Shown here in pieces: positions 10,193 to 34,551 of a stretch of DNA of 64,000 nt. Within the stretch, counting starts at the first letter, position 1. The number at the start of each line of letters is the position of its first letter. The position numbers were made by a program, and so were the translations under genes. The notes under the pieces are model-generated. The model searched no databases, was not told the origin of the DNA, and saw nothing but the letters and a program-made list of their open reading frames with translations. Source of the stretch: Croceicoccus mobilis (GTDB lineage Bacteria; Pseudomonadota; Alphaproteobacteria; Sphingomonadales; Sphingomonadaceae); the NCBI RefSeq assembly GCF_001661965.1, contig NZ_LYWZ01000002.1, positions 186,001 to 250,000 of the forward strand. The letters run 5' to 3'.

Positions 10193-10208
10193 TTGATTGA
10201 ACGTACAA
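10193..10208 (-). promoter_or_regulatory. Operator-like motif, site a (thiolase operon)
   Basis: On the minus strand TTGTACGTTCAATCAA. It matches the motif TTGTACGWWCAATCAA found at five places and weakly at a sixth, and lies just upstream of the thiolase start, where a repressor would block transcription. Confidence 0.6.
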
Positions 10209-10360
10209 TTTATATACTTCTGCAACCCGACCGCGTCAAATCACTGCGCTTAGCGGCCGAACCCAGTGGGCGACGCGACGGACGTAATACGGCCGCCTCA
10301 ATCCCACCCCACCATAAGCGGATGACCTAGCCCCCGGCCCAAGCGCGATTTGCGTCCCGG

Positions 10361-10374
10361 ACCGGGGCCCCGGT
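10361..10374. terminator. GC palindrome between two operons, possible terminator
   Basis: The perfect 14-bp palindrome ACCGGGGCCCCGGT lies 21 bp downstream of the TonB-receptor stop, with CCGGGC/CCCGG repeats around it. No T-run follows on the minus strand, so a role in stopping TonB-receptor transcription is only suggested by position. Confidence 0.35.
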
Positions 10375-10394
10375 GCCCGGGTTCACGCGGAGCC

Positions 10395-12662
10395 TTAGAA
10401 CCTGTGCCCGACAGTCACGCCATAAGTCCTCGGCTCTTCCAGATATCCGTTGACGCCAAAACCCACACCGACCCAGCTGATGAGACTGTTGGCGATTACG
10501 GTCTTGTTCGTGATGTTCTTCATGAACAGTTGTCCGTTCCAGTCCCCGTCATTCGATTCCCAGTTCAGAAAAGCGTTGAACTTGGTGTTCGCGGGCTGGC
10601 TGACATAATCGACGTTGAACGGAGTGAAGTAGGTACGATCCCGCCATGCGACTTCGCCGCGCAACGTGAAATCGCCAAGGTTCGAGGGAATGCGGTACTG
10701 CGCACCGGCAGCAGCCGTAAAGTCTGGAGCCTGCGACAGGGCATTGCCGGAAAGATCGATCTCACCGAGATAGGCACTTGATGGATCCTCGCTGGTATAC
10801 TCGTCGAAACGGGCATGCAGCCAGGCGCCGTTGGCATTGATCTCGAAGTTTTCCGTAACGGTCGCGCGAAGTTCCGCTTCAAGTCCGTAGATTTCGGCCG
10901 TTGCCGCATTCTCCAACGCCAGCTGGGCACCAACGACCTTGCCGATCTGGAGGTCCTTATAGTCGTAATAGAAACCAGCAAGATTGAGCCGCAGTCTGCG
11001 GTTGAAAAGCTGCGATTTGACACCGGCCTCGAAAGCACTTATCCGCTCTGGAACGACCGGATCCTGCAAGGCACCCAGATTGTAAGTGCCCGACTTGAAT
11101 CCCTTCGACCATGATGCATAGAGCAATGCATCAGGCGTGACCTGATAATCGATGGCCACACGCGGAGTAAACGACTTCCAGCGCTTGCTACGATCGGCAA
11201 CCCCCAGCGGATCGGGAAAGCCCTGCGGTCCGGTATAAGGCGTGAGGACGTCGAACGACAGCTCGTCGTGGTCAGTCTTCTTTTCCGAACTGTAACGCGC
11301 GCCGAGAGTCAGCGTGAGATCATCGGTGACTTCATAACTGCCCTGCCCGAAAACGGCCACAGCATCGGTCTTGATGTACCCCTTGGCCAGATAACCCTGC
11401 ACGAAAGTGCCGGGCATAGGAAAGCCGACTGCCGGACTCGCGTTATTGAACGGCGTGAACTGATAACCCGCATCATTCTCATGGAAGTAATATACGCCCA
11501 GCAACCATGTCAGCCGGTTGGCCTGCCCTGAAAGCTGAAACTCCTGACTGAATTGCTTGCTCAATTCATATTGGAACTGCTTGGCGACCGCGATGCCAGT
11601 GGCATCCAGGTCAGTTTGCGCACTGTTGTTGGTCCAGCGATAAGCCGTCAGCGAGCTGAGTTCGATATCGCTCGAAAGCTCGTAGCTTATCTTGCCGCTT
11701 ACTCCCCAGAATTCGACATTGTTGCGCGGATCTTCCTCGTTACTTATGTCACGCAAGTTCGTGGGGTATGAACCGCCCCATTGAATGCCCACAGGAACAA
11801 TCGGCGTAATCGGACCGTCGGGCCCGCCAATCTGCTCGAATCCCGCAGCGCCCAGCGCGTGATAGCCGCCCGCCCGGTCCTTCTCATGAAAATAGTCGGC
11901 CTTTACATTCACCGACAGGCGGTCTGTCGGCGTGAAAAGCAGGGTTCCCCTGATGGCCCGTGTGCGAAGATCGTCGATTTCCGTGCCGGTCACGGTATTT
12001 TCGCCAAAACCGTCCCGATCCTGCGTCTGGAATGCGATCCGCGCCGCCAGTACATCCGGGACAATCTCGCCACTCACTGCCCCTTCGGTCGTGACGCGGC
12101 CATAATTGCCGGCAGTAAGACGGAAATAGCCGGATGAGTTCCACGTCGGCTCTCGCGTGTTTATATTGATCGAACCGCCAGTGGCATTACGCCCATAAAG
12201 GGTGCCCTGCGGCCCCCGCAGAACTTCGACCTGCTCGACATCATAGAAGCTTGCAAGAGCGGCGATCGACCGAGACAGGAACACACCATTCAGGTGAAAC
12301 GCAATACTGCCTTCCGCACCCGCCGAGATATTCTCAAGGCCGATGCCACGAAGCGCGATTTTGGCCATACCCAACTGCTGACCCAGATTCAGGTTCGGGA
12401 CTGTAGCGACGACCCCTTGCAAATCATTGATGCCGCTTCGGTCGAGCTCGGCGGAAGTTACAGCGGTGATCGCAAGCGGGACCTTCTGAAGTGATTCAGA
12501 GCGCTTTTGCGCTGTCACGACGATTTCGCCGATCACAGGGCCGTCATCCTGCTGGACTGCCTGCACTTCCGCGTCGGTCGGGGCGACACTTTGCGCGTGC
12601 GCGTTTGTTGCAACCGCGAGAGCAATCAAGCTTAGAGTTCCGCCCATGATTACTTTACACAT
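10395..12662 (-). CDS. TonB-dependent outer-membrane receptor A
   Basis: A 755-residue outer-membrane importer. An N-terminal signal peptide (about residues 1-24, ending NAHAQS) is followed by the TonB box and plug domain (EIVVTAQKRSESLQKVP; VEVLRGPQGTLYGRNATGG). A 22-strand barrel follows, ending in the aromatic residue of GVTVGHRF. In sphingomonads such receptors often import aromatic or hydrophobic growth substrates rather than siderophores. It is divergent from a TetR gene, with operator site b in the 323-bp gap. I take it as the uptake arm of this catabolic unit; the ligand is unknown. Confidence 0.9.
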   Translation of the reverse strand: MCKVIMGGTLSLIALAVATNAHAQSVAPTDAEVQAVQQDDGPVIGEIVVTAQKRSESLQKVPLAITAVTSAELDRSGINDLQGVVATVPNLNLGQQLGMAKIALRGIGLENISAGAEGSIAFHLNGVFLSRSIAALASFYDVEQVEVLRGPQGTLYGRNATGGSININTREPTWNSSGYFRLTAGNYGRVTTEGAVSGEIVPDVLAARIAFQTQDRDGFGENTVTGTEIDDLRTRAIRGTLLFTPTDRLSVNVKADYFHEKDRAGGYHALGAAGFEQIGGPDGPITPIVPVGIQWGGSYPTNLRDISNEEDPRNNVEFWGVSGKISYELSSDIELSSLTAYRWTNNSAQTDLDATGIAVAKQFQYELSKQFSQEFQLSGQANRLTWLLGVYYFHENDAGYQFTPFNNASPAVGFPMPGTFVQGYLAKGYIKTDAVAVFGQGSYEVTDDLTLTLGARYSSEKKTDHDELSFDVLTPYTGPQGFPDPLGVADRSKRWKSFTPRVAIDYQVTPDALLYASWSKGFKSGTYNLGALQDPVVPERISAFEAGVKSQLFNRRLRLNLAGFYYDYKDLQIGKVVGAQLALENAATAEIYGLEAELRATVTENFEINANGAWLHARFDEYTSEDPSSAYLGEIDLSGNALSQAPDFTAAAGAQYRIPSNLGDFTLRGEVAWRDRTYFTPFNVDYVSQPANTKFNAFLNWESNDGDWNGQLFMKNITNKTVIANSLISWVGVGFGVNGYLEEPRTYGVTVGHRF

Positions 12663-12870
12663 CTCAGTATCCTCATGATTTTATAAAATATATATCTAAA
12701 TATATGATCTCGAAGTCCGATCGATTTTCGATACGATCTCAATGCCGCCGGCAGTTTTCAGTGTCGGCACAGCCAACCAGCCTATCACGGCTTCCTCGAT
12801 CACAGAGCGACCTTGTCACTACCCGGATCTAAACGCTTGCAATCCACCCCCGCATCGTCAAACCTAAAGT

Positions 12871-12886
12871 TTGATTGTACGTACAG
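12871..12886 (-). promoter_or_regulatory. Operator-like motif, site b (TonB receptor A / TetR A)
   Basis: On the minus strand CTGTACGTACAATCAA; the core GTACGTAC is a perfect palindrome. It lies in the 323-bp region between two divergent genes, 99 bp before the TetR start. The rest of that region is AT-rich and holds no gene that I can see. Confidence 0.65.
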
Positions 12887-12985
12887 CTATTTTCTACGTA
12901 TAGCAAGCCTTGCCGAGTTTATCGTCGTTGTTTGTACGGTTGATTTGGAGCAATCTTCCATCCATTGAGGGCAAAAGGATGATTG

Positions 12986-13693
12986 ATGCCGCGCAAAAGA
13001 GTTCCTCGCCCGAGTAGCGAGCTCACCCGCAAGAGAATCCTGAGTGAAGCGGAGCGGCTGTTTTCCGCCTCCGGTTACGACGGTGTTTCCATGCGCCAGA
13101 TCGGCACTGCGGCGGAAGTGCCGTTCGCCTTGGTGACCTACCATTTCGACACCAAGCTGGGTGTCTATCAAGCGATCTTCGATCATCGTATGTCGCAGTT
13201 TCAGGCTCAGCGACACGATCTGCTGCAAAAGGTGGAAATCCAGCCTGACATCTATCAGACCTTCCTCTTGATCGCGGCGGCATTCGTCGGCCCGATGATG
13301 ACGCTGAGCAACATGCCGAACGGCAAGCCGTTTGCGCAATTGCTTGCGCGCGAGATCTTTGATCCGAATGAAGCCGACCGCGGCGTGGTTGCAAAGCACC
13401 TTGATCCACTGGCTGAAAAGACGATGGCGCTCCTCCAGAAAGCCGCGCCGAAAGCATCGAAAGCGCAGATCGCACGAGCCTACCACTTCGCTACAGGCGC
13501 CTTGGTCGTAAATCACGCGGGGAGCGAGCGTTTGAAGCGAATTACCGGGTTGAAAAACAGCGAGCTAAAATCGGGAGACCCGACTGACCAACTGGTGCAT
13601 TTCATTGCCTCCGGACTTGTAGCTGCACTGCGCCCGGAGATCTTGGCGGAAAAGACCGCCATCCCCGTCACCGTCGAATCTGGCCGCACATGA
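12986..13693 (+). CDS. TetR-family transcriptional regulator A
   Basis: A 235-residue repressor. The N-terminal helix-turn-helix domain (residues about 12-58) has the family pattern RILSEAERLFSASGYDGVSM followed by TYHFDTKLGVYQAIF; the C-terminal part is the ligand-binding domain. The start is the ATG at 12986, behind an AAGGATG ribosome site; a TTG one codon earlier is possible. It is divergent from TonB receptor A, with site b between them. It is a good candidate to bind the TTGTACGWWCAATCAA motif, though the second TetR (34693) is equally well placed. Confidence 0.85.
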   Translation: MPRKRVPRPSSELTRKRILSEAERLFSASGYDGVSMRQIGTAAEVPFALVTYHFDTKLGVYQAIFDHRMSQFQAQRHDLLQKVEIQPDIYQTFLLIAAAFVGPMMTLSNMPNGKPFAQLLAREIFDPNEADRGVVAKHLDPLAEKTMALLQKAAPKASKAQIARAYHFATGALVVNHAGSERLKRITGLKNSELKSGDPTDQLVHFIASGLVAALRPEILAEKTAIPVTVESGRT

Positions 13694-13788
13694 TGCGGAC
13701 AGCTTTTTCAAGCACACGTCCGCAATTGCCCTGGCCACTTTCCTTCCGCAGACCCATTGCTCCAACACGACGGTACGCACGGATTCGG

Positions 13789-14886
13789 TTATCCGTTTGC
13801 CTGACTGGAGGAAGGCGTTAGTTCCGCCGAGCCTTCAAACGGTGCCAACAGCGCATCAATATCAGACCGGCTGACATCCGCGATATTGGCCGGCTGCCAG
13901 CTGGGAGATTGGTCTTTGTCGATCAGGATCGCCCGTACGCCTTCGGCGAAATCGTGCCCCCCGACGATCCGCACCGCCATGCGGAAATCATCAGCCAGAA
14001 CGCGCTCGATAGTTTGACCGCGTCCCTCCACTATGCGCCGCCATGTAGCCCGCAGACTGGTGGGTGATGCGCGTTCGACGACCGAACAAGCCTCGGCAAT
14101 CCAACCTGCAGTCGAAGCTTCAGTGCGAAGCTGTGCAACAACCGCATCGAGATCGTCGTTTCCGAAGATTTCGTTGATCTGGTCTATCTGAGGGGCTAGG
14201 TTACCAGCCGGCAGCGTTGCCGAGTGCCTGTTCAACGTGGTTTCGACCACCGAGGCGTCGATCAACGGCTCCTTCGCCAAAGCGTCCATCAGTGCATCGA
14301 AATTAGCCTTGAGCACGTGATGCGTCGCCAGCCCCACGGCCAGTGCATCGGCGGCTCCGAGGTGCGGACCGATCAGCGCCAGATACCTGCCCACCGCGCC
14401 TTGGCAACGATTGAGAAACCAGGTGGCGCCGACATCCGGAAACAGGCCGAGGATGGCTTCGGGCATGGCCAGCCGCAGATCCTCGCTGACTACGCGGTGG
14501 GAGCCGTGCATCGAAAGGCCCAGCCCCCCGCCCATAGCAATGCCATTGATCAGCGAGATGAACGGCTTAGGATAGGAGTTGATGCGGTAGTTGACCCCAT
14601 ACTCCGTCCCGAAGAACGCGCGGCCAAGCGCCATTCGTTCCTTGGGATCGGCAGGCGCGCCGATCGTCCGCACGTCACCGCCGGCACAGAACGCGCGCTC
14701 GCTTACGCTGCGCAGCATGACAGCATCTACGTCGCTGTCATGCGCCCAATTCGTCAGAATGGTATCGAGCCGCTCCACCATTGCGCGATTCACGGCATTC
14801 AGCGCCTTAGGACGATTGAGCGTTAGAATGCCAAGCCGCCCACGGATTTCCGCCCCGACTTCATGTTCGGCTTGCTGATCGTTCAT
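13789..14886 (-). CDS. 3-hydroxyisobutyryl-CoA hydrolase (enoyl-CoA hydratase/isomerase fold)
   Basis: A 365-residue crotonase-fold enzyme, longer than typical hydratases (about 260) and matching the HIBCH group. It shows the oxyanion-hole motifs AFCAGGDVR and GIAMGGGLGLSMHG, then MPEAILGLFPDVGATWFL. HIBCH frees 3-hydroxyisobutyrate from its CoA ester in valine or isobutyrate breakdown. It lies 10 bp after the methylmalonate-semialdehyde dehydrogenase gene in the same operon, which supports this over a plain enoyl-CoA hydratase. Confidence 0.8.
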   Translation of the reverse strand: MNDQQAEHEVGAEIRGRLGILTLNRPKALNAVNRAMVERLDTILTNWAHDSDVDAVMLRSVSERAFCAGGDVRTIGAPADPKERMALGRAFFGTEYGVNYRINSYPKPFISLINGIAMGGGLGLSMHGSHRVVSEDLRLAMPEAILGLFPDVGATWFLNRCQGAVGRYLALIGPHLGAADALAVGLATHHVLKANFDALMDALAKEPLIDASVVETTLNRHSATLPAGNLAPQIDQINEIFGNDDLDAVVAQLRTEASTAGWIAEACSVVERASPTSLRATWRRIVEGRGQTIERVLADDFRMAVRIVGGHDFAEGVRAILIDKDQSPSWQPANIADVSRSDIDALLAPFEGSAELTPSSSQANG

Positions 14887-14896
14887 TCGCCGCCTC

Positions 14897-16399
14897 CTAC
14901 TTCAACGTCGGCATGACGAATTCCGCGCCTTCGCGGATACCCTTCGGCCAGCGCAGGGTCGCGGCCTTCAGCCGGGTGTAGAAGCGCACGCCTTCGGGGC
15001 CATGCATATGGTGATCGCCGAACAACGATCGCTTCCAGCCGCCGAACGAATGGAAAGCCATCGGAACCGGGATCGGCACGTTGACACCGACCATGCCGAC
15101 CCGGACCTGCCCCATGAATGCCTGCGCCGTGTCGCCATCTCGCGTAAAAATGGAAGTGCCGTTGCCGAATTCGTGGGCATTGACGAGATCCAGCGCTGCC
15201 TCGAAACTTTCCGTCCGTACGACCGAAAGGACCGGCCCGAAGATTTCTTCTTTGTAGATCCGCATGTCCGGCGTGACATTGTCGAACAGGGAACCGCCGA
15301 CGAAGAATCCGTTTTCGTACCCCTGGATTTTCAGACCGCGTCCATCGACGACGAGGTCCGCACCTTCGGATACGCCGATATCGACGTATCCCAGAACCTT
15401 TTCAGCATGTTCCCGGGTGATAAGCGGCCCCATCTCCGCCTCGTCATCCGTACCCGCTCCAACCTTCAGCGTGCGCACCTTGGTTGCCAGCCTTGCAACC
15501 AGCGCATCCGCCGTCTCCTTGCCCACAGGCACGGCAACCGAAATGGCCATGCAGCGTTCGCCGGCCGATCCATAAGCGGCACCCATCAACGCGTCGACCG
15601 CCTTGTCGAGATCGGCATCGGGCATGATGACCATGTGGTTCTTTGCCCCGCCGAGTGCCTGCACGCGCTTGCCCGCCGAGGAGCCCCGGCGATACACATA
15701 TTCGGCGATCGGCGTCGAACCGACGAAGGATACCGCCTCGATATCAGGGTGATCGAGGATCGCGTCGACGACCGGTTTGCCGCCGTGAACCACCTGGAAA
15801 ACGCCGTCTGGCAATCCCGCCTTGGCAAGGAGATCTGCGATTTCGTTGGCCAGGCTCGGATCGCGTTCGGAAGGCTTCAGGATGAAGCAGTTGCCGCAGG
15901 CGAGCGCAACCGGGAACATCCACATCGGAACCATCGCCGGGAAGTTGAACGGGGTTATCCCCGCAACGACACCGAGGGGTTGGCGGAATGAGACCGCGTC
16001 GATGCCGTTGCCGACCTGCTGCGAATATTCACCCTTCATCATCTGCGGAATGCCGCACGCAAACTCGACGACTTCAAGCCCGCGGATCACCTCACCCTTC
16101 GCGTCAGAGTGCACCTTGCCATGTTCGGCGGTAATGATACCGGCGAGCCGGTCGAGATCGCGTTCGATCAGGTCGCGCAGCTGAAACAGCACGCGCGCCC
16201 GCACGTGCGGCGGTGTCGCCGCCCAAGCCGGGAATGCATCCTTTGCAGCCGCGACCGCAAGGTTCACCTCCTGCTCTCCACCAAGGACAAGCTGTGCGGA
16301 AACTTCGCCGGTTGCAGGGTTGAATACGTCCGAGCGGTTATCACTTGCGCCCGCATCGTACCCATAGATCACATGTTCGATCACATTGGCTTTGGTCAT
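14897..16399 (-). CDS. mmsA: CoA-acylating methylmalonate-semialdehyde dehydrogenase
   Basis: A 500-residue aldehyde dehydrogenase that converts methylmalonate or malonate semialdehyde to propionyl-CoA or acetyl-CoA with NAD+ and CoA. Typical MmsA features are [28 protein letters not shown], and the catalytic Cys in [20 protein letters not shown], which distinguish it from non-acylating dehydrogenases. The start [10 protein letters not shown] at 16399 was chosen by the family N-terminus; upstream in-frame codons overlap the neighbouring gene. It sits 31 bp after the iron alcohol dehydrogenase and 10 bp before the hydrolase gene. Confidence 0.9.
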
Positions 16400-16430
16400 G
16401 AAGACTCCTGAATTCTGATTGTCCTGACGT

Positions 16431-17588
16431 TCAGACCCAGGCTTCGCGGTAAAGCGCCTGAATTTCGTCAAGATTGGGAATTCGAGGGTTGTTGGCCGGC
16501 GACCCGGAGGCCAGTGCCTGTTCCGCCATGATCGGCAGCAGTTCGTTCCAACGAGCCTCGTCGATGCCGTAACTTTTCGGCGTGGGCACGCCGAGGTCGC
16601 GATTAACCACGCCAAGCGCCTCAACCATGTGACCGACAGCATCCTGATCGCCCTCCGCCGGACCAGTCACCCCCATCGCCCTGGCGCAGTCGGCATAGCG
16701 GGACAGCGCGGCGGGCGCCGACCAAGCGGTTACGACGGGCAGCAGCATGGCATTGGAAAGGCCGTGCGCCACATGGAAATGCGCGCCGATCGGCCTGCTC
16801 ATTCCGTGAACCAGCGCAACCGAAGCGTTCGAAAAGGCAATACCTGCCTGCAATGAGCCGATCATCATCGCTTCGCGAGCGTGGCGATCGCCCGGATTTT
16901 CACACACTCGGCGCAGATTCGGCCAGATCGCCCGCATCGCTGCCAGCGCCATGCTGTCGGAAAACGGGCTTGCAAGTTTGGAGACGTACGCCTCCATCGC
17001 GTGGGTCAACGCATCGATGCCCGTATCGGCGGTCAGCCGCGCTGGTTTCGAAAGTGTCAGTTCGTAGTCGACGATGGCCAGCGTCGGCAGGTAGGCAAGC
17101 CCTGCGCAGAGCATCTTTTCATCATTCGCTTCGTCGGTGATGATCGTAAAGCGGGTCGCCTCCGATCCGGTCCCCGCCGTAGTCGGGATGGCGATAATGG
17201 GTAAGCCCGGCTCATTTTCCTGGTGTGGAGCCTTGCGTTGCCGCATCGTGCCCCCGCGCGAACCAAGGATCGCAACGGCTTTTGCCGTGTCGATCGGGCT
17301 TCCGCCACCGAACCCGATAACGCAATCGTGATCACCTTCTTTCAGGAGATCGACCGCCGCATCGACCGCAGCGACCGTGGGATCGGGAACAACCTCGGTG
17401 AACGCCCGTGCGGCAATGTCCGCACGCTTCAGGATGTCCAGCAACCTGTCCAAAGCCCCGCTGCCTGCCAGGAATTCGTCGGTCAGAATAACCGGTGAAC
17501 TCAGGCCCAGCTGGCCCAGTGCCTCCGGCAATTCGTTGATGGCACCACTGCCGATACGCATGGCGCGGGGGAGCATGATAGAAGCCAA
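16431..17588 (-). CDS. Iron-containing alcohol dehydrogenase (group III)
   Basis: A 385-residue NAD(P)-dependent dehydrogenase. It shows [17 protein letters not shown] (cofactor loop), [11 protein letters not shown], and the metal-site region [11 protein letters not shown] and [20 protein letters not shown] with its conserved histidines. As first gene of the mmsA/HIBCH operon it may act on 3-hydroxyisobutyrate or a similar hydroxyacid or alcohol, in place of the usual MmsB-type dehydrogenase; that is inference. It is divergent from a LysR gene, with a 122-bp shared promoter region. Confidence 0.85.
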
Positions 17589-17710
17589 GACCTTGTCTCC
17601 CTTTTCTTTCAGCCAGCAATTGACTGCATCTTGACCACAGCCCTATCATCGACAAATCAACACGAAAATAATCAATATGGCGCAAAATCTGTGCAGGATT
17701 GAACATCAAG

Positions 17711-18667
17711 ATGTCTGCCTTCAACTGGAACGACTTGCGCTTCTTTCTCGCCGTCGCGCGCTCGCGCACCATCTCGCTTGCCGGGCGACGGACGGGGTCC
17801 GACCATGCAACGGTGAGCCGCAGGATCACCGCGCTCGAAGCGGCGCTGGGCCTCAAGTTGTTCGAGCGCAATCCGCGTGGCTACAACATGACGCAGCATG
17901 GCGAGGCGCTACTGGAGATGGCAAGTGCGATCGAAGCAGAGGCGGTGAAGATCGATGAGACCGCCTCCGGACAGCAGCACGGGCTGACAGGAGCGGTGCG
18001 GATCAGCGCGCCGGAAGGGTTCGGCAACTTCTTTCTGGCATCGCGTATCGGGGAGCTTGCGACTGCCCATCCGCAGTTGTCGCTGGAAATGATCACCATT
18101 CAACAGATCGTGGCACTGTCACGGCGCGAGGCGGACATCGCCATCACGATGGCATTGCCGCAGACCGGCAATATCGTGCAAGAACACCTGACCGATTACC
18201 GCCTGTTCGTATATGCCTCAGCCGATTACCTTGCTGGTGCCCGGCCGATACGCACGCGCGACGATCTGGGCGACCATCCCTTTATCGGCTACGTCGACGA
18301 TCTCATCTTCACGCGCGCGCTGAACTACTTGCCGGAGATCAAGCCGCACCTTCGCGCGCGGCTGCAGAACAGCAGCCTGCAAGCGCAGCTTAGCGCGACG
18401 ATTTCCGGTTTCGGTCTGTGCGTGCTGCCCGATTACGTGGCCCGAAATGCGCCCGAACTGGTGGCTGTACTCCCCGATGAGGTGTCGCTGATGCGGTCCT
18501 ACTGGATGGTTGCCGACGCCGATGTCGCGGAAAGCGGCCCTGTCCGGTTGACCAGGCGCTTCGTTCGCAGCCTTTTAGCCGAAGCGGACGATTTCTTCAC
18601 GCGCTGGCCGAACAGCACTTACCCGCCAAATACTCTTGCCGAAAGCTCGGGCTGCGCATCACGATAA
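17711..18667 (+). CDS. LysR-family transcriptional regulator
   Basis: A 318-residue regulator. The N-terminal winged helix (residues 1-60) has NDLRFFLAVARSRTISLAG and HATVSRRITALEAALGLKLF; the C-terminal co-inducer domain begins near residue 90. I chose the ATG at 17711 because MSAFNWNDLRFF is the usual start; a TTG four codons earlier is possible. It is divergent from the Fe-ADH/mmsA/HIBCH operon and probably controls it in response to a pathway intermediate. The dehalogenase-like gene follows 15 bp downstream and may be co-transcribed. Confidence 0.88.
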   Translation: MSAFNWNDLRFFLAVARSRTISLAGRRTGSDHATVSRRITALEAALGLKLFERNPRGYNMTQHGEALLEMASAIEAEAVKIDETASGQQHGLTGAVRISAPEGFGNFFLASRIGELATAHPQLSLEMITIQQIVALSRREADIAITMALPQTGNIVQEHLTDYRLFVYASADYLAGARPIRTRDDLGDHPFIGYVDDLIFTRALNYLPEIKPHLRARLQNSSLQAQLSATISGFGLCVLPDYVARNAPELVAVLPDEVSLMRSYWMVADADVAESGPVRLTRRFVRSLLAEADDFFTRWPNSTYPPNTLAESSGCASR

Positions 18668-18682
18668 GCGAAGGACATTCAA

Positions 18683-19609: not shown

Positions 19610-19711
19610 CCACGTGGTCTTCGCAAAGGCTGACCCGCGGTCTTATCCATTCGACCGACAGCCGTGTTTTGATTCGGGTGCGCTCGCGATCGCGAGACGC
19701 GCTCCGCTCTA

Positions 19712-23546: not shown

Positions 23547-23590
23547 CTACACCTTCTCCTCATGACGATGTCCATGTGACAAACCCGCCT

Positions 23591-26048: not shown

Positions 26049-26251
26049 AGTGCAATAGGCGCCCACCATCGCAAAGTGATAATGGACGCCTTCGCCTCAA
26101 GTGCGGCGCGAACCGATCGGCAAATTCCTGACCTTGCAACGCACTCTGTCAGCCAGCGCCGCCAGCTAAGGCCTTGCTGCCAGTTCGTGACGCTCCGACC
26201 AGCTCAGACAGCGGCAGGCCGGGGCAAAATCTTGATGGAGAGATTTCTTTT

Positions 26252-26983
26252 ATGTCCAATGGTATGAAGCGGATCGCACTGGTCACTGGTGCGAACAAAG
26301 GGATCGGGCTGGAGATAGCCCGGCAGTTGGCGCAAGCTGGCGTTTTTGTGTTGATGGGAGCCAGAGACGCCGCGCGCGGCAAGGCCGCTGCCGACGAACT
26401 GTTGTACAGCGGGCTGAACGTCGCCTCCATCCAGATCGCCGTCGACGAACGGGAGAGCGTTGCCTCCGCAATTTCCGAAATAAAGGCCGACCACGGTCGT
26501 CTCGACATCCTCGTCAACAATGCCGGCATCGCTCCGAAGGGCGATGGACCGCCGAGCGTGACGTCGCTCGAAATCGGGCGGCAAATATTCGATACCAACT
26601 TCTTTGGCGCATTGGCTGTCACTCAGGCGGCGTTGCCCATGCTGCGCAAGTCGGCTGCCGGACGCATCGTCAACCTTTCGAGCAGCCTTGGCTCGCTTGC
26701 ATTGAATGGGGATCCGACGAACCCGTTCTATGACGTTCGCCTCCTGGCCTATAATGCATCTAAGACCGCGCTCAACATGCTTACGGTTCAGTTGAACGCC
26801 GAACTGAGCGGCAGCAAAATAACCGCCGTCTCGGTCTGCCCGGGTTTAACCAACACGGATCTGAGCGGAAATCTAGGTTGGTCGACCGCGGAAGGCGCTG
26901 CTGCCCCAGCCAAGTTCGCCTTGATGACCGACGGCAGCCACGCAGGAGCGTTCGTCAACATGGATGGCGCGTTGCCATGGTGA
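26252..26983 (+). CDS. Short-chain dehydrogenase/reductase
   Basis: A 243-residue classical SDR. It has the cofactor motif TGANKGIGLEIARQL (residues 12-26), NNAGIAPKG, the catalytic Ser region IVNLSSSLGS and Tyr/Lys in YNASKTALNM. C-terminal motifs are VCPGLTNTDLSG and a family-typical end. The start MSNGMKRIALVTG at 26252 places the glycine motif at the usual distance; upstream in-frame codons encode unrelated sequence. It belongs to the carbonyl-reductase-like (NADP-preferring) group. Substrate unknown. Confidence 0.83.
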   Translation: MSNGMKRIALVTGANKGIGLEIARQLAQAGVFVLMGARDAARGKAAADELLYSGLNVASIQIAVDERESVASAISEIKADHGRLDILVNNAGIAPKGDGPPSVTSLEIGRQIFDTNFFGALAVTQAALPMLRKSAAGRIVNLSSSLGSLALNGDPTNPFYDVRLLAYNASKTALNMLTVQLNAELSGSKITAVSVCPGLTNTDLSGNLGWSTAEGAAAPAKFALMTDGSHAGAFVNMDGALPW

Positions 26984-27008: not shown

Positions 27009-27392
27009 CTATCCGCCATGGATACCGCCCCGTCTCCTTATCTCGACTTTGACGCCCGCCATTCCACGGGCAAGCGCGAAGGGTTTATCAATCTCGACGC
27101 TGACTCTGTTCACATTACCTGCCTCCAGGCAAAGCGCGGCAAGCCGCCAGCCGAAATTCTCGATCAGGGGAATGTGACTCCGCGCCAGGCTTTCAATTGC
27201 AGAAACGATGTTGCGATAGTCGAGCGTATCGACAATTGAACCAATGTTCTTGGCGATGACCTCTGCTTCGACAGAAATGATCAAAGGCTGAGTACGGTTC
27301 GCCTCGTCCGGGTTGATGCCGACATCGGCAAGGACTTCGTACCCTTTCAGGCGCACCCAGATTGACTGGGTAGGAGGCAGAGAACTGTTCAT
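27009..27392 (-). CDS. folB: Dihydroneopterin aldolase family protein
   Basis: A 127-residue FolB/FolX-family enzyme of folate synthesis; FolB cleaves dihydroneopterin to 6-hydroxymethyl-dihydropterin. Family features are the start strand IWVRLKGYEVLADVGI, DTLDYRNIVSAIESLA and the Glu/Lys region of VSVEIDKPFALARGMAGV. The start overlaps the stop of folD by 4 bp (ATGA), so the two are coupled. Its presence here, away from other folate-synthesis genes, fits a need for extra tetrahydrofolate by the methyl-transferring demethylase nearby. FolX-type activity cannot be excluded. Confidence 0.82.
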   Translation of the reverse strand: MNSSLPPTQSIWVRLKGYEVLADVGINPDEANRTQPLIISVEAEVIAKNIGSIVDTLDYRNIVSAIESLARSHIPLIENFGWRLAALCLEAGNVNRVSVEIDKPFALARGMAGVKVEIRRRGGIHGG

Positions 27393-28255
27393 GCGCCCCC
27401 AATCGCACGTTGCGCAGCCAGTACCGTATTCGCCAGAAGGCAGGCGATCGTCATCGGACCTACACCACCGGGCACAGGGGTTGCGGCTCTGGCGTGGGCA
27501 ATCTCGTCGAACGCTACGTCACCGACCAAACGGTCTTTCCCATGTTCGTTCGGAACGCGGGTGATGCCCACGTCGATGACCGTTGCCCCCTCCTTGACCC
27601 AGAAACCGCGAACCAGGCGGGGGGAGCCGGCTGCTGCGATTATGACGTCGGCCTGTCGCGCGATATCGGGTAATCCTCTGGTCTCGATATGGGTGACGGT
27701 GACAGTCGCTTCACGCTCAAGAAGCAGCATCGCGATGGGTTTGCCGACTATATTGGATTTTCCGATGACAACGACATTCAGGCCCGTCAGGTCCTGATAC
27801 ACGGTGTCCAGCAATTTCATGACGCCCAAGGGCGTGCACGGGACGAGGCCACCAGCCCCGGTCGACAGTCGCCCGACGTTGACGGGGTGGAAGCCATCGA
27901 CGTCTTTGGATGGATCGATCGCTCCCAATACAACGCCGGCGTCAATATGTGCAGGCAAGGGAACCTGAACCAGAATACCATGGATCGTCGGATCGATGTT
28001 GAGACGGGTTATCAGGGTCAACAACGCTTCCTGTGACGTGTCTGCCGGTAATCGATGCTCGAAGCTGTCGATACCGACGCGCTCGCAAGCTTGGACCTTG
28101 CGGGCGACATAGACCTCACTTGCCGGATCATGACCGACCAGGACCACCGCCAGCCCCGGCCGAATGCCATGTCCGCCCATCATCTGACGGACGTCGTTCG
28201 CCGTCTGCGCGTCGAGATGTCTGGCAAGTGTTTTGCCGTCGATAATCTCAGCCAC
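27389..28255 (-). CDS. folD: Methylene-THF dehydrogenase / methenyl-THF cyclohydrolase
   Basis: A 288-residue bifunctional enzyme that interconverts 5,10-methylene-THF and 10-formyl-THF with NADP+. It shows the catalytic region ASEVYVARKVQACERVGI (Tyr and Lys), VQVPLPAHID, DVDGFHPVN, GKSNIVGKPIAMLLL (usually GRSNIVGKP) and PVPGGVGPMTIA. It is coupled to folB. I take it as an island copy serving the demethylation pathway in addition to a chromosomal folD, because it sits behind transport and oxygenase genes and next to a broken CoA-transferase gene. Confidence 0.95.
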   Translation of the reverse strand: MAEIIDGKTLARHLDAQTANDVRQMMGGHGIRPGLAVVLVGHDPASEVYVARKVQACERVGIDSFEHRLPADTSQEALLTLITRLNIDPTIHGILVQVPLPAHIDAGVVLGAIDPSKDVDGFHPVNVGRLSTGAGGLVPCTPLGVMKLLDTVYQDLTGLNVVVIGKSNIVGKPIAMLLLEREATVTVTHIETRGLPDIARQADVIIAAAGSPRLVRGFWVKEGATVIDVGITRVPNEHGKDRLVGDVAFDEIAHARAATPVPGGVGPMTIACLLANTVLAAQRAIGGA

Positions 28256-28466
28256 AGACCCGGCGCCTGTTCAATCGAGGATGTGCCGGTCGACCCATGA
28301 GGCGCGCTGGGTTATTTGGATGGACGTGACCCAGGGTCACTTTCGGCGCGAGTTCGGCGAGATGGACTGGAGGTTTCCGGTACTCGCGTGCGACGACGCA
28401 AAGATCGGTGACCATCAGGTCGGCCCGTGCAGCACGGGCCGCGATCTGGTCCACGTTCAAGCCCAT
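28248..28466 (-). pseudogene. Internally deleted CoA-transferase subunit B remnant
   Basis: The reading frame begins MGLNVDQIAARAARAD and then runs straight into LMVTDLCVVAREYRKPP and HLAELAPKVTLGHV. In the intact subunit B (7660-8295) these correspond to the first 14 residues and the last 45 or so, so about 150 residues, including the catalytic Glu, are gone. The frame then drifts through unrelated codons into the folD start. It overlaps the stop of the MFS gene by ATGA, just as intact subunit B overlaps subunit A. It cannot encode an active enzyme. Confidence 0.8.
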
Positions 28467-29779
28467 CAGACGACGTCCATTTTTCGGGCAAAGTCCGAGG
28501 ATACAGTTTCCGCCACGTCAGAACGCGAAAACGAGAACCGGCGCGCCGCGATGACAAGGCAAACAAAGGCGATAGGCAGAGTGGTGATACTGACCATTGC
28601 GAGCGAGTCGTCCACGCGAAGTTCGTCACGAAAGACGCGATCGGTGAATAACGCGGTCAACGCGGGCCCGCCTGCTACGCCAAGCAGGCTGGACACCAGA
28701 AGATAAACCGCCGACAGCTGCCCCCGAAACTGCGGCGGCGTAATCATCTGCACAGAAGCGATTCCCGAACCAAGGGCGAGCGGTCCGAGAACGAAACACA
28801 CGGCAAGCAAAGCCATCGCCCCTTGCCCGCTGGAGACGAAGGCCAGGCCAGCCAGGCAGGGAAGGAAAAGTGCCGCTTCGGCAGCACCGATGACGACCGG
28901 TCCCGCAACTACCCCGCGCCGCACCAGCCGGTCGGCAATCATGCCGCCACTTAAGGCACCGACCGGGCACAGCAAAAGAGCACAAAGGCCGAGGCCGTAC
29001 CCCACTTCGGGCGGCGTCCACCCATAGACGCGCATCAGCAGCGCCGGAGACCAGGCCAGGAAGGCATAGACGTTCAGAAGAATGATGGCATAACCCAGAA
29101 ACAGGGGCACGATCAGCTTTGCCCGCGCTTTGAGGAATGCCGCCGTCTCCGACAGCGGCTGCGCCTGATGGCCACGCTGCCGAACAGGTTCGCGAACAAG
29201 CACGATCGCCAGGCAGGCAGGAATGCCCAATGCTCCCAGCAAAATGAACAGCCATCGCCAACCCGACCAGTCCAGACCGGACATAGCCGATATCGTCTCG
29301 GCGATACCTGCGACCTGACCGCCCAGAAGGAAGGCCCCCCCTACGCCCAGCCAGCTACCCAACGAAAATATGGAAAGTGTGCTGGACAATCGTTCGGGGG
29401 GATAGGCATCTGCCAGCAGCGAATAGGCCGCAGGTTGCAGGCACGCCTCACCTACGCCCACGCCGATCCGGGACAGGAACAACTCGCCAAAATTCCGGGC
29501 AAGCCCGCACGAGGCAGTGGCCACGCTCCAGAAACCTACGCCGGCAAAAATGATCTTCTTCCTGTCTCGTCTGTCAACCAGCCAGCCAAACGGCAATCCC
29601 AGCAACATATAAAGAAACGCAAACGCCAGCCCGTGAAGCAGGCTGATCTGAAGATCGGAAAGCGAAAGTTCACTTTTGACCGGCGCGACGAGAAGCGAGA
29701 GAATCTGCCGGTCGACAAAACTGAGCGCAAGCGTAGCGGTCAGAACCGTCAATGCGTATCCGCGCGAAATCACTTGCAC
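28466..29779 (-). CDS. Major facilitator superfamily transporter (spinster-like)
   Basis: A 437-residue inner-membrane transporter with about 12 hydrophobic segments. The motif between helices 2 and 3 is GLPFGWLVDRRDRKKI, and FVDRQILSLLVAPVKSELSL at the start is typical of the spinster-type MFS group common in sphingomonads. It lies 115 bp downstream of TonB receptor B, so uptake across the outer and inner membranes may be paired. The last bases before its stop resemble the end of CoA-transferase subunit A, which suggests a fusion junction here. Confidence 0.85.
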   Translation of the reverse strand: MQVISRGYALTVLTATLALSFVDRQILSLLVAPVKSELSLSDLQISLLHGLAFAFLYMLLGLPFGWLVDRRDRKKIIFAGVGFWSVATASCGLARNFGELFLSRIGVGVGEACLQPAAYSLLADAYPPERLSSTLSIFSLGSWLGVGGAFLLGGQVAGIAETISAMSGLDWSGWRWLFILLGALGIPACLAIVLVREPVRQRGHQAQPLSETAAFLKARAKLIVPLFLGYAIILLNVYAFLAWSPALLMRVYGWTPPEVGYGLGLCALLLCPVGALSGGMIADRLVRRGVVAGPVVIGAAEAALFLPCLAGLAFVSSGQGAMALLAVCFVLGPLALGSGIASVQMITPPQFRGQLSAVYLLVSSLLGVAGGPALTALFTDRVFRDELRVDDSLAMVSITTLPIAFVCLVIAARRFSFSRSDVAETVSSDFARKMDVV

Positions 29780-29894
29780 TCGTCAATCTCCCGAACAAAC
29801 GTCGCGGCGACTTTGTCCGCCGTGATCGACGGCAGGCGATCATCAATCACACGAACGCCCGCCGCCGCACCTCTTTAAAAAACCTGCTGTGCCT

Positions 29895-32189
29895 CTACCG
29901 AAACTTTCCGGTCACACGAACGCCGAACGTGCGCGGCTGCCCGCCCCACTCAACGTAGGAGAATGCTCGCCCTTTGGCTTCGGCGTAAGCAACGTTAGCG
30001 AGATTGCGCCCCCAGATGCCTAGGCTCCAGTTGTCGGCCACGTATGTCAGGTTGGCGTTGAGCAACCCGTAGCCGTCCACTCGCAGCTCCGGCGAGTTCG
30101 CAAGATCGGAATCGAAACCCGAGCGGTAATCGTAGGACACGCGGCCTTCGATATCGTTCACGCCCGCAGGGATGGAGACATTGGCCGCGAACGTCACGGT
30201 GTATTTCGGTATTCTCGAAAACTCGAGGTCTTTTGGATCGTCGACACCCGGCACCGGCACATTGAACGATTTGAATTTGGCATCGGTATAGCCAAAATTC
30301 GCTTGCAGACGCAGCGGGCGAACCGGCTGCAAGATGATCTCGGTCTCTAACCCCTTGATCTCGGCGCTTGCCGCATTGACCAGCGTCTGAATCGGCGCGG
30401 AACCGGCGATGTTAAGCGTCGATACCTGCTGGACATCCTTGTAATCCTGAATAAATCCCGCAACGTTGACGCGCAGCCTCCTGTCGAGCAAGTCGGATTT
30501 GATACCTACCTCGTAGGCTTCGACATCTTCGGGATCGGCAGGCGTGAAATTGGCCGCGGAGAAGTCAGCGCTATTGTTGACACGGCTGTTGAAATTGCCG
30601 CTGCGATAACCTTGCGTATAGCTGGCGTAGACCATGACACCGTCCGTAGCCTGATAGTTGACTACCGCGCGTGGCGAGAAATCGGTCCAGCTCTTTTTTA
30701 CGCGATAGAAGGTCTGTCCACAGTCGGTCAGCCCCGGCCCGCCGCACAGCGTGAGCGGCGCACCGTTGAAGTCTTTGGTATCCTTGCTGAACCGGCCACC
30801 AAGCGAAATCGTCAACCGATCGGTCGGTCGCCAGTCGACATTGACGAATGCAGCTAATGCCTTCACATCCTGATCGAACGCGCCTTGAATGTAGTTGAAT
30901 GTTTCGGTCGGCACGGCAGCGGACAAGATGCGCCGGTTTTCCTGAAGATACATATCGTAATTGAGATAGAAAAGTCCGGCGGTCAGATCCAGCTCATCGT
31001 CGGTGAGAGGGACATTGAGCCGCGTCTCCACACTGCGCTGAGTGCTGCGTTCCGGATTATCGATAAGATAGAACAACGGCACCGGGCCGCCATAGAAGTT
31101 GACGCTGTTATCCAGCTTGACCCGGCGCCATGCGGCGACGGTCGTCAACTTCGCCCCGCCTTCGAACTCGTTGACGAGTTCGGCGATGATATGGCCTGCG
31201 CGGAGCCGGTAATATCCGCCATCGTCGATATTCGTATCGTATCCCTCGGCAGTGGGCGTGAAGCCGTAAACCGACTGAAGCGGGACTGCCGCGCCTTTGT
31301 CGGGGCTGAAGTTGCGCGGAAACGACGTGTCGTCATCATTGTTGCGCTGATACTGGCCGAACAGCGTCAATGTATGCTTGTCGCCGATTTCAAACAGCAC
31401 GGTCGGCTTGATCGTGACCTGGTCCAGCTTGCCCAGCCGTCCGGTCTCGTGGGTAATCGGTTCGCCAGACGGGTTTCCGCTCGCCGGCTCCCAGATGCCG
31501 TCGTTGGTATTTTTGTACATGCCGTCGCTGCGGCGATAGAGCACCGCCAGTTTGCCCATGACCGCATCACTGCCCAACGCACCCTCGACGCTGGCATTGG
31601 CGGTCAGTGTGTTGAAATTGCCGTAGCTCACATCGGCAAGAACTTGGAAATCGCGCTGCGGCCGCCGCGTGCGCAGCGATATCGCGCCGCCGGTGGCGTT
31701 GCGCCCGAACAGCACTCCTTGCGGACCGCGCAGGACTTCGACCGATTCCAGATCGAAAGTACTCTGCAGCGATCCCGCAAGAAAGGCCACGACCATGCCG
31801 TCCTGAATGACGTTTACGGCAGGGTCGGCGCTGCGGATGGAGGAGTTGATGCCGATGCCGCGAATGGCGAAGTTCGGGAAACCGGGCGTCGTTCCGGCAG
31901 TCGGCGTCTGGACGTTGGGGGCCAGCGCGCCGAGATCGGTGACATCGACCGTGTTCGCAGAACGCAACAGCGCAGGATCCATCGCGGTGATCGCGATCGG
32001 AACCTTCTGCGCGGATTGGCCCAAGCTCCTGCGTTCGCCATAGACGACGATATCGCCGATGCCCGAATCGTCGAGCTGCCCGGAGCTGTCGTCCGGAAGA
32101 TCCTGCGTTGTGGCGCTTTGCGCCATTGCCAGGGCCGGCAGCATTGCTGTGCACAATGCGGAGGCCGACATTAAGAAACGCATTCTCAT
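29895..32189 (-). CDS. TonB-dependent outer-membrane receptor B
   Basis: A 764-residue receptor. The signal peptide spans roughly residues 1-23 (ending ALAMAQS), followed by a TonB-box region GDIVVYGERRSLGQSAQKVP and plug motif VEVLRGPQGVLFGRNATGG. The barrel ends with a terminal aromatic-containing strand (GVRVTGKFR). I placed the start at 32189 (MRMRFLMSAS), behind GGGAG; an ATG six codons upstream is possible. It sits 61 bp after Rieske oxygenase B in the same direction. Ligand unknown; context suggests the aromatic substrate of that oxygenase. Confidence 0.9.
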   Translation of the reverse strand: MRMRFLMSASALCTAMLPALAMAQSATTQDLPDDSSGQLDDSGIGDIVVYGERRSLGQSAQKVPIAITAMDPALLRSANTVDVTDLGALAPNVQTPTAGTTPGFPNFAIRGIGINSSIRSADPAVNVIQDGMVVAFLAGSLQSTFDLESVEVLRGPQGVLFGRNATGGAISLRTRRPQRDFQVLADVSYGNFNTLTANASVEGALGSDAVMGKLAVLYRRSDGMYKNTNDGIWEPASGNPSGEPITHETGRLGKLDQVTIKPTVLFEIGDKHTLTLFGQYQRNNDDDTSFPRNFSPDKGAAVPLQSVYGFTPTAEGYDTNIDDGGYYRLRAGHIIAELVNEFEGGAKLTTVAAWRRVKLDNSVNFYGGPVPLFYLIDNPERSTQRSVETRLNVPLTDDELDLTAGLFYLNYDMYLQENRRILSAAVPTETFNYIQGAFDQDVKALAAFVNVDWRPTDRLTISLGGRFSKDTKDFNGAPLTLCGGPGLTDCGQTFYRVKKSWTDFSPRAVVNYQATDGVMVYASYTQGYRSGNFNSRVNNSADFSAANFTPADPEDVEAYEVGIKSDLLDRRLRVNVAGFIQDYKDVQQVSTLNIAGSAPIQTLVNAASAEIKGLETEIILQPVRPLRLQANFGYTDAKFKSFNVPVPGVDDPKDLEFSRIPKYTVTFAANVSIPAGVNDIEGRVSYDYRSGFDSDLANSPELRVDGYGLLNANLTYVADNWSLGIWGRNLANVAYAEAKGRAFSYVEWGGQPRTFGVRVTGKFR

Positions 32190-32250
32190 ATTATCGCTCC
32201 CATTCATTATCGTTTGATACTCGTGTCGTCGGTTGGTGCCGCCTGGGGCG

Positions 32251-33336
32251 TTACCCTCTCAATCCGGTGCTGCGATCGGCGGTCGTTGAAATCGGCGCGA
32301 CGTGCGAGGTCGATGCTCGCTCTCGCTCCACCCGCTCCAGCCGATCGATTTCGCGCGACACACGAACGGCTGCCTCGTCGCAGCTCAGCATGGCAGGCGT
32401 GAACTCGTGGGCCCGCGCATAGGCCGAGCGCGCCTCGACCTGCTCTACCACGCGCTTATCCTCGCGCGTCAGCGCCTGAATCTGCCATTCGCGCAGCACC
32501 TGATCGATGGCAGGGTCGTCTATGGCGAAGTTGCGCGACGACCCGAAGAAATAGTGCGTCGCCCCCTCGCTTTCCGGGGTCAGAATGTGCGTCCCAGATG
32601 CTCCTCGGCTGCTCTCCTTCGCCGATCCGGCGGGGGCATAGGCGACATAATTCAACGTGGCGCTGACCGGAAACCAGCGCACATCACTCCATCCGTCGAC
32701 CAGTTCCGGCGCGTCGGGCAGCATACGCCGCGTCAATGCATTCGGCGCGGCGGACGGATAGGTGATGAACGCATGAATATCGCGGCGCTCTCGGACCACA
32801 TCACGACGGTGCCGCGCAAAGCCATCGGACTGCATTTTACTGCTGTGAACATATTGAACATGCCCGAGATCCATCAGGTTATCGAGCAACAGCCTGTCGT
32901 TGCAGCCAAGATGGAAATAGCCGCCGACATGGCCCAGGTCGGGATCGACGCGGCATCTGAAGTCGGGAATATCGGCGGGATCCGCATCGCCTGCGTCACC
33001 CGCCCATATCCAGATCAGATCGTCGCGTTCGACGACCGGGAAGGATCGCACGTCAAGCGTGGACGGGCGCGCGCCATTACCGTGCGGGTTGTGAACACAC
33101 CGCCCCCCGCCATCGAATTGAAGCCCGTGATAGGGACATTGCAACCTGCCGCCTGCGACAGAACCGTCGCTCAACGCGGCAAATCGATGTGGGCAGAGGT
33201 CCAGTAGTACCGCCGCGGCACCGTCGGTCTGGCGAAACGACACCAACGGCATACCCAACACGGTCCGCGCCAGCGGCCGATCGATCACCTCATCGGGCAG
33301 CGCGATTACGTACCAGGCATTGTAAACGAAAGGCAT
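32251..33336 (-). CDS. Rieske non-haem iron oxygenase B (VanA/dicamba-demethylase type)
   Basis: A 361-residue terminal oxygenase. Rieske ligands are in DLCPHRFAAL and LQCPYHGLQF. The mononuclear iron motif is DNLMDLGHVQYVH. Spacing and length match vanillate demethylase and dicamba monooxygenase oxygenase components. It is paralogous to Rieske A but clearly diverged. No reductase or ferredoxin gene accompanies it. Order on this strand is MBL B, Rieske B, TonB receptor B, MFS, CoA-transferase remnant, folD, folB, all with short gaps, so one long transcript from site f is plausible. Confidence 0.9.
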   Translation of the reverse strand: MPFVYNAWYVIALPDEVIDRPLARTVLGMPLVSFRQTDGAAAVLLDLCPHRFAALSDGSVAGGRLQCPYHGLQFDGGGRCVHNPHGNGARPSTLDVRSFPVVERDDLIWIWAGDAGDADPADIPDFRCRVDPDLGHVGGYFHLGCNDRLLLDNLMDLGHVQYVHSSKMQSDGFARHRRDVVRERRDIHAFITYPSAAPNALTRRMLPDAPELVDGWSDVRWFPVSATLNYVAYAPAGSAKESSRGASGTHILTPESEGATHYFFGSSRNFAIDDPAIDQVLREWQIQALTREDKRVVEQVEARSAYARAHEFTPAMLSCDEAAVRVSREIDRLERVERERASTSHVAPISTTADRSTGLRG

Positions 33337-33405
33337 TGGCCTCTTCCCGACATCCTCTATTGGCTTTTTTACAGGCGACTTTCGTGCCTTGCAGATGGGC
33401 TGCCG

Positions 33406-34404
33406 TTAATGCGGGCAGCAGCTTTTCGGAGCCTCCGGAGAAGAGCCGGCGCGCCGCTTGCGCGCACGCTCCGCATACGGCGCCATCATCGCGATCATGG
33501 AACCGAAATCGGTGACCGGTTCCTTGCCGCCGAACTCGCAATAGAGCCGATTGAGATTGACGACGATCCGCTCGGACCCGCCCCAATCTTCGAACTCGCC
33601 AAGTGCGATATCCTGGATCGCCTCCTCGATCGGCATTCCCGCATCGAAACGCTTGCGCGCTTCTGCCTGAATATAGACGAGGTATTCCTTGGTTTTCCGC
33701 ACCCCGTTTTTATCAGTGACCGGACCGTGGCCCGGAACGACTGTTTCGATGTCGAGCGACAGAATGTGGTCAAGCGCGGCGATCCAGTTCGAGCAAGGCC
33801 CCGACCAGAGCACAGGCGTATTCGTAAAGAACACGACATCGCCTGTGAACACCGTCCGTTCGGACGGCACGACGGCAAGCATGTCACCCGGCGTATGCGC
33901 GGGGCCGACCTTGATCAGTTCGACTTTCTTGTCACCGACCGTGAGCGTCATGTCCTCTTTGACCAGATCGGTCGGAAGTTTGGGGTCGATGCCGGTGAAA
34001 TCGAACGGCGGTCCGTAAAGTTCGAAAATGAAATCGCCTATGATGCCTTCGGGCCGGTTTTCTAGCAGGCCCTGAAAGGCACTGGGCGGGCGAGCGAGGA
34101 TGCCGTCTTTGCATTCGGGCGTGGCGTAGATTCGGGCATGTTCCATCAGCCGGTTGCCGAAAGTATGATCGCCGTCGGCATGAGTGTTGACCAGCGTATT
34201 GATGTCCCGCGCCGCGAGGCCGGTCGCCGCGCGATATTCCTCCAGCATGTGATGCGTCAGCCGCTCGTCGCGCAAAGTGTCGATCAATACTGCCTGATCG
34301 CCATCCACGATAAGGCCCGAGTTGCTCCAACCCCAGCCACTGCCCTGATTGCAGTCCTGCAAATAGCACAGGCAACCATTACCGAAATCACGCACTCCGT
34401 CCAC
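33406..34404 (-). CDS. Metallo-beta-lactamase-fold hydrolase B
   Basis: A 332-residue MBL-fold protein starting with GTG behind AAAGGAG. The metal motif is NTHADGDHTFGN (Asp in place of the second His), with GPAHTPGDM, FTGDVVFF and PGHGPVTD further on. The C-terminus ends in a Cys/His cluster (KSCCPH). It is paralogous to MBL A, with the same partners (Rieske, TonB receptor, TetR). It is divergent from TetR B. The reaction is unknown; a lactonase, esterase or thioesterase-like step is compatible with the fold. Confidence 0.8.
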   Translation of the reverse strand: MDGVRDFGNGCLCYLQDCNQGSGWGWSNSGLIVDGDQAVLIDTLRDERLTHHMLEEYRAATGLAARDINTLVNTHADGDHTFGNRLMEHARIYATPECKDGILARPPSAFQGLLENRPEGIIGDFIFELYGPPFDFTGIDPKLPTDLVKEDMTLTVGDKKVELIKVGPAHTPGDMLAVVPSERTVFTGDVVFFTNTPVLWSGPCSNWIAALDHILSLDIETVVPGHGPVTDKNGVRKTKEYLVYIQAEARKRFDAGMPIEEAIQDIALGEFEDWGGSERIVVNLNRLYCEFGGKEPVTDFGSMIAMMAPYAERARKRRAGSSPEAPKSCCPH

Positions 34405-34535
34405 GATACGATGCTCCTTTCAAGCCCTCTGTCGGCGCTCACACCTGCCTGTCATGCGGACCGGCAAGCTCCGTCTTTGCTGCGAACCTGCTGCACTTAC
34501 CTGCGTCCGCGACCGCCGCTTGAGCTGCAACAAGC

Positions 34536-34551
34536 TTGTACGATCAATCAA
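34536..34551 (+). promoter_or_regulatory. Operator-like motif, site f (MBL B operon / TetR B)
   Basis: TTGTACGATCAATCAA, an exact match to the consensus. It lies in the 288-bp gap between the divergent MBL B and TetR B genes, well placed to control both. No other feature is seen in that gap. Confidence 0.65.

Follow-up and report, generated by a model that had tools for sequence, protein, structure and literature searches.

The window analysed here, the 64,000 nucleotides of Croceicoccus mobilis contig NZ_LYWZ01000002.1 from position 186,001 to 250,000, carries a catabolic island, most gene units of which are preceded by a 16-bp imperfect dyad, TTGNNYG-WW-CRNNCAA. We suggest, with a probability of about 0.75, that this site is the operator of a dimeric repressor of the TetR family, most likely the protein here called TetR A, which would derepress the units together on binding a ligand. 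Very probably one repressor switches most gene groups of the island together. The strongest evidence for shared control is the conservation of the promoter sites in a second genome of the family, G381, where the site shared by several units of the window was found at five of five orthologous promoters. The binder, the sign of the regulation, the ligand and the extents of the operons are what we infer from these sequences. The six sites are, in window coordinates:

10193-10208, minus strand: putative operator, exact match, 13 bp before the thiolase ATG (10179); orthologous site in G381 15 bp before the ATG.
12871-12886, minus strand: putative operator between the divergent genes of TonB A (start 12662) and TetR A (start 12986), one mismatch; site in G381 before TonB A.
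21841-21856, plus strand: putative operator, exact match, 60 bp before MBL A (GTG 21780); site in G381 66 bp before the ATG.
24822-24837, no strand assigned: putative operator, ten of ten half-site positions, 97 bp before Rieske A (ATG 24724); site in G381 103 bp before the ATG.
25088-25103, plus strand: putative operator, one mismatch, 69 bp before NmrA/SDR (ATG 25173); site in G381 73 bp before the ATG.
34536-34551, plus strand: putative operator, exact match, between MBL B (GTG 34404, 131 bp) and TetR B (TTG 34693, 141 bp).

An earlier note on this DNA had listed five copies, and these were recovered at the same coordinates and strands, three of them exact (10193, 21841 and 34536) and two with one mismatch (12871 and 25088). 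It had also placed the copies in non-coding promoter DNA, and with the gene starts checked as listed above this is the case for all six sites. Allowing three mismatches, we found nine matches at seven distinct places in the window (those at 10197 and 21837 are second registers of the sites at 10193 and 21841), against a shuffle mean of 0.56; none of 100 shuffles reached nine. A scan of the whole 4.2-Mb genome with at most one mismatch to TTGTACGWWCAATCAA returned the five listed sites only, and the remaining genome matches have two mismatches (the second register of 21841) or three. It is hardly credible that the copies are chance repeats. Single weaker copies do occur at chance level, those at 38719 and 25568 scoring 12.2 and 16.2 inside the null of 30 shuffles (9.0-18.5), but the shuffled counts, the fact that the genome has no further match within one mismatch, and the footprint in G381 all argue against this explanation.

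The pattern TTGNNYGWWCRNNCAA gave six places in the genome, five of them in the window, compared with two for the reversed-pattern control and about two expected from base composition. Its sole match outside the island, TTGGACGAACGGTCAA on contig 18 (G000:C18:242877-242892), is perhaps 122 bp before a gene; it may lie in non-coding DNA and may be due to chance.

Read as a dyad, the site overlaps the 12-bp palindrome previously described. All ten half-site positions are fitted at 10193, 21841, 24822, 25088 and 34536, and nine at 12871. With a half-site spacing of 2 bp the window has five perfect pairs, and with the eight other spacings within 0-8 it has none, a count that is not independent as the half-site was derived from the same sites. 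The site had been described as a 12-bp palindrome plus an extra half; the 12-bp register stands, and a 16-bp dyad register offset by 2 bp is present as well. Complementary pairs in the 12-bp register (centre 6.5) and the 16-bp register (centre 8.5) amount to 60% versus 57% in the window and 72% versus 58% in G381, while in another genome, G114, the 16-bp register is the stronger (64% versus 48%). We keep both registers because their strengths differ by genome; the copy before Rieske A fits well in the 16-bp one only. That copy, given earlier as a partial match at 24818-24833, does exist, but its correct register is 24822-24837, where it agrees with TTGNNYG-NN-CRNNCAA at all ten half-site positions. 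Taken alone it has a matrix score of 17.6, which 1 of 30 shuffles reached; its main support is the orthologous site in G381.

Further we searched 397 genomes drawn from the family, its own included, and 17 had a match with at most one mismatch. Besides the own genome, two such sites were found in G381 (4 kb apart) and in G114 (10 kb apart), and G002 and G092 each had two within 30 bp. In G381, 59 kb were read and the remainder was searched by pattern only. This region holds an orthologous cluster with identities of 64% for TonB A, 44% for TetR A, 86% for the thiolase, 82 and 87% for the CoA-transferase subunits, 65% for Rieske A, 77% for MBL A, 71% for the FAA hydrolase, 64% for NmrA, 82% for LysR, 84% for the MmsA-type protein and 82% for Fe-ADH. 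With a matrix built solely on the six sites of the window, the five orthologous promoters came out as the top five places in the 59 kb (scores 17.8-22.1). After these, the best separate place (15.3; L061 629) lies ahead of an abhydrolase gene and is a possible sixth site. In 19 of 20 mononucleotide shuffles of G381 the maximum was 9.8-13.5, and genome-wide every match with at most one mismatch to the consensus of G381 itself fell within this cluster.

Between the window and G381 the sites are 79% identical and the 40 flanking bases 33%, with the TonB A pair aligned by site direction and the other four pairs by gene direction. As seen from the list of sites, the spacing to the gene start is kept in four of the five ortholog pairs. 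All six window sites have T at position 4 of the TTGWACG half, and all five sites in G381 have A (p 0.002); leaving out the two sites of ambiguous direction (Rieske A in the window and NmrA in G381) makes it five versus four (1/126). This position thus drifts in concert across unrelated promoters, as expected from one shared regulator.

The promoter distances and the AT-rich flanks would also agree with an element recognised by a sigma factor or an activator rather than with a repressor operator. We find this very improbable, as the site has the same direction as the gene for thiolase, TonB A and NmrA and the opposite one for MBL A and MBL B, and for TonB A the direction is clearly reversed between the window and G381; such mixed and reversed directions are easier to reconcile with a protein that binds a dyad than with a promoter element. 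The thiolase site moreover ends 13 bp before the ATG, and a sigma-70 scan was empty on the sites, although that scan performed at chance level (5 and 3 found versus 6.8 and 4.7 expected).

The units that would be under this control, and those without a strong site, are as follows, with gene assignments of the target units from Pfam:

4744-10179, minus strand: predicted target unit with thiolase, two CoA-transferase subunits, amidohydrolase and a zinc-ADH-like gene.
10395-12662, minus strand: predicted target, TonB-dependent receptor A.
19712-21780, minus strand: predicted target unit with MBL A and FAA hydrolase.
21906-24724, minus strand: predicted target unit with Rieske A (VanA_C) and an AMP-dependent ligase.
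25173-26983, plus strand: predicted target unit with NmrA-like and SDR genes.
27009-34404, minus strand: possible target unit with MBL B, Rieske B, TonB B, MFS, FolD and FolB, the last genes presumably included.
13789-19609: units without a strong site, with ECH_2, MmsA-type Aldedh and Fe-ADH on the minus strand and LysR and abhydrolase on the plus strand.
35361-39306: units without a strong site, with MTHFR-like, PurU-like and LigM-like GCV_T genes on the minus strand and PAS-LuxR on the plus strand.

The genome-wide scans and the footprint in G381 give good support to a single regulon over most catabolic units, as the earlier note had proposed. The genes folD/folB, which that note had included, have no site of their own. 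They could be reached from 34536 by read-through only, over two gaps (115 and 210 bp) in which a scan that itself ran at chance level (13 found, 11.8 expected) detected no terminator-like site on that strand. The absence of a strong site from the mmsA-type and ligM/purU/metF units was seen again, both in the window and in their counterparts within the 59 kb of G381, and covers the MmsA-type/Fe-ADH/ECH_2, LysR and LigM-like/PurU/MetF units in either genome. The LigM-like protein of G381 is 40% identical and may be a different gene. A degenerate copy at 38719-38734 would lie between the ligM-like gene and PAS-LuxR if the latter starts at ATG 38761, with the chance-level score given above. The proposal that LysR and PAS-LuxR control these units rests on adjacency. 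LysR was also considered as the protein binding the 16-bp site and was rejected, as its neighbourhood is without a site in both genomes.

Two TetR proteins are encoded beside sites in the window, and a different dyad precedes the second:

12986-13693, plus strand: TetR A, with TetR_N at 38.2 bits and TetR_C_30 at 76.8 bits; 44% identical ortholog in G381.
34693-35355, plus strand: TetR B, with TetR_N at 46.4 bits and TetR_C_30 at 29.5 bits.
34573-34588, no strand assigned: a different 16-bp dyad, GTGCACGATCGTCCAC (GTGCACG-AT-CGTCCAC), six of seven pairs complementary, CG-NN-CG core.

Both proteins score above the Pfam cut-offs for two domains of the TetR family (24 bits for TetR_N and 26.3 for TetR_C_30), and the inverted repeat that a TetR dimer would bind is seen in the DNA as the dyad. 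The recognition helix is nearly equal in TetR A and its G381 ortholog (VPFALVTYHFDTK, VPFALVSYHFGSK) and differs in TetR B (VPLSLINRYFGRK). Within the cluster of G381 a close relative was found for TetR A only and none for TetR B. The second TetR of G381 is also a TetR_C_30 protein beside a site, with the recognition helix VNQAAINYHFGSK.

To link the site to TetR A we used the window-only matrix to score, for each of 24 TetR genes homologous to it (L026-L030, L107-L116, L117-L124 and L062), the best site in the 360 bp upstream. The upstream site beats shuffles at 14 of the 24 loci (p<0.05) and pieces of the own locus at 15 (0.05). Such sites are TTGGTCGTTCGTCCAA in Paracoccus denitrificans, CTGTACGATCGTGCAG in Cupriavidus KK10, TTGTACGTGTGTTCAA in Variovorax RA8 and TTGACTGTTCGATCAG in Chelatococcus, and a TTCAAC variant occurs in eight of the nine genomes L108-L116. 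A scan of genome contigs gave ten distant TetR relatives outside this test, two of which (L031 and L032) were scanned whole, with best scores of 8.2 and 10.7. A relative of TetR A was present in 86 plasmid records, 8 of which were retrieved.

Several results weigh against assigning the sites to TetR A. Ten of the 24 homolog loci are without a significant site, and the loci are not independent, since L108-L116 are nine genomes of one family and L026, a positive, is G381 itself. One of the 20 shuffles of G381 reached 18.3, above the weakest orthologous site (17.8), and for TonB A the spacing is not conserved (208 versus 96-174 bp, depending on the start). TetR B is itself a TetR_C_30 protein adjacent to a site, and TetR_C_13 genes in other genomes stand beside TTGAACGTTCAATCAA, so that the site class is no proof of the subfamily.

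Both paralogs might bind the same sites, by competition or as heterodimers, which would make the regulon respond to two ligands. Each carries TetR_C_30 and lies beside a site, the same is seen for the second TetR gene of G381, and the best match of TetR B among the searched family genomes is the TetR of G114 (30%), whose cluster has TTGTACG sites. Against this, the recognition helices of A and B differ where those of A and its ortholog nearly agree, and TetR B has a different dyad in front of it. We regard joint binding as unlikely, and the evidence favours TetR A acting over both proteins acting. The different dyad ties with one at 19682, between convergent genes, as the best intergenic palindrome with a CG-NN-CG core, and 12 of 100 shuffles also contain its pattern when one mismatch is allowed; as an operator of TetR B itself it is a weak candidate.

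Less likely still is a division into two regulons, with TetR B alone acting on MBL B/Rieske B through 34536 and TetR A on the other five sites. TetR B does adjoin 34536, and neither TetR B nor the MBL B/Rieske B module has an ortholog within the G381 region read, which leaves 34536 without a footprint. The site at 34536 is nevertheless an exact match to the common consensus, hard to square with a different recognition helix. An attempt to identify the site of TetR B through homologs gave no outcome, because no close relative was found in the sets searched (identities of about 30% along most of its length, or of 35-38% for stretches of about 100 residues).

With TetR A as the preferred binder, the ligand-free dimer would occupy the six sites near the promoters and block transcription of the uptake gene (TonB A), both Rieske/MBL modules, the CoA ligase, the NmrA/SDR pair and the thiolase/CoA-transferase unit, and probably of its own gene as well. 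A pathway compound, an acid or an acyl-CoA, would bind the C-terminal domain, the dimer would leave, and uptake, O-demethylation, CoA activation and ketoacyl cleavage would be derepressed jointly.

Some other loci touch the same proteins. The G114 locus (L062, G114:C1:3941000-3960900), first met through the motif, is a different catabolic cluster with P450s, a CoA-transferase III, SDR and a TetR_C_30 regulator; it has no significant site upstream of its tetR and five sites of the TTGTACG class before neighbouring genes, and is probably another regulon of the same kind. An exclusive link between the site class and TetR_C_30 was considered and rejected, as the TetR genes adjoining TTGAACGTTCAATCAA in G002, G092, G392 and G077 (L064-L067) are of the TetR_C_13 type; the full 20-bp palindrome-like form is found in G002 and G092. 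Relatives of TetR A in G178 and G277 (L102 and L103) lie beside a VanA-type Rieske gene and relatives of the FAA hydrolase and the TonB receptor; a related element of the TTGAACAAG type precedes the Rieske gene.

The nearest curated family of TetR A is NF053516 (PsrA), at 85.1 bits against a cut-off of 300, so TetR A is not placed as a PsrA equivalog. Its nearest solved sequence is 2fbq, which we take to be PA3006/PsrA. The PsrA operator has the form C/G-AAAC-N2-4-GTTTG/C. PsrA-type repressors are, like TetR A, TetR regulators of acyl-CoA pathways (fatty-acid metabolism), and unlike it in operator sequence; its score is also far below the family cut-off. PsrA, FadP and LiuQ are listed among the TetR regulators that act on pathways of fatty acids or branched-chain amino acids (PMC5343134). 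EdcR of Caenibius tardaugens, presumably of the same order as our host, is a TetR repressor of an estradiol catabolic cluster with a palindrome before several operons and a proposed partial autoregulation (PMC8700777). It resembles the present system as a TetR repressor of a catabolic cluster with a shared palindrome, and differs in its C-terminal domain, TetR_C_11, and its operator, TnnCnnTACnAnTnGTAnnGnnA; TetR A and B match TetR_C_30 and not TetR_C_11 (E up to 0.001), so they are not of the EdcR type. Another sphingomonad repressor of catabolism, PheR of Sphingobium sp. SHPJ-2, whose title claim includes uptake, belongs to the IclR family and has the minimal motif GCAACG (PMC13273656). The regulon belongs with the known TetR regulators of acyl-CoA/fatty-acid or amino-acid pathways, and its arrangement is well supported and of a familiar type.

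In open-licence PubMed Central, a search for six written-out forms of the site found the bare 12-mer only, in one Geobacillus toolbox paper; neither TetR_C_30 nor PF17939 was mentioned, no paper contained as many as five out of six terms for the cluster, and no description of the site or cluster was found by title or start of abstract. A megablast search of plasmids with window positions 9000-25000 matched 17 records, the best with 8% coverage, and gave no copy of the cluster.

The island is flanked by a perfect 182-nt direct repeat (4390-4571 and 42811-42992) and bounded by transposase genes, which lie at 39597-45363. F-type conjugation genes (TraE, TrbI, TraC, TraU, TraN, TraF and TraH) follow on the right at 47970-62652, and on the left a tRNA-Val (2897-2971) stands beside der/engA, its 3' part having an exact 51-base copy on contig 1 (G000:C1:33706-33756). 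It is probable that the catabolic island lies within an integrative conjugative element at tRNA-Val with its far end on another contig, a setting that fits a regulon without a strong operator elsewhere in the genome.

Further, we tentatively speculate that TetR_C_30 proteins are widespread catabolic regulators with one 16-bp operator architecture (YTGNNYG-NN-CRNNCAR) in which the outer bases vary. The island might then carry a complete regulon, with operators, repressor and pathway transferred as one on a conjugative element, and TetR B would add a second input by way of a variant dyad of its own. If the architecture is shared, the operators of other uncharacterised catabolic TetR proteins become predictable. 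For this island, whose O-demethylase-like enzymes and enzymes of acyl-CoA cleavage were not found described in the searches made, the sites give a testable wiring and point to TetR A as the likely regulator, the ligand of which would indicate the substrate of the island. Among solved structures, dicamba O-demethylase (3gb4) is the best relative of Rieske A (23591-24724) and chlorothalonil hydrolytic dehalogenase (6uxu) the second-best of MBL B (33406-34404), which may hint that the substrate is a chlorinated or methoxylated aromatic compound.

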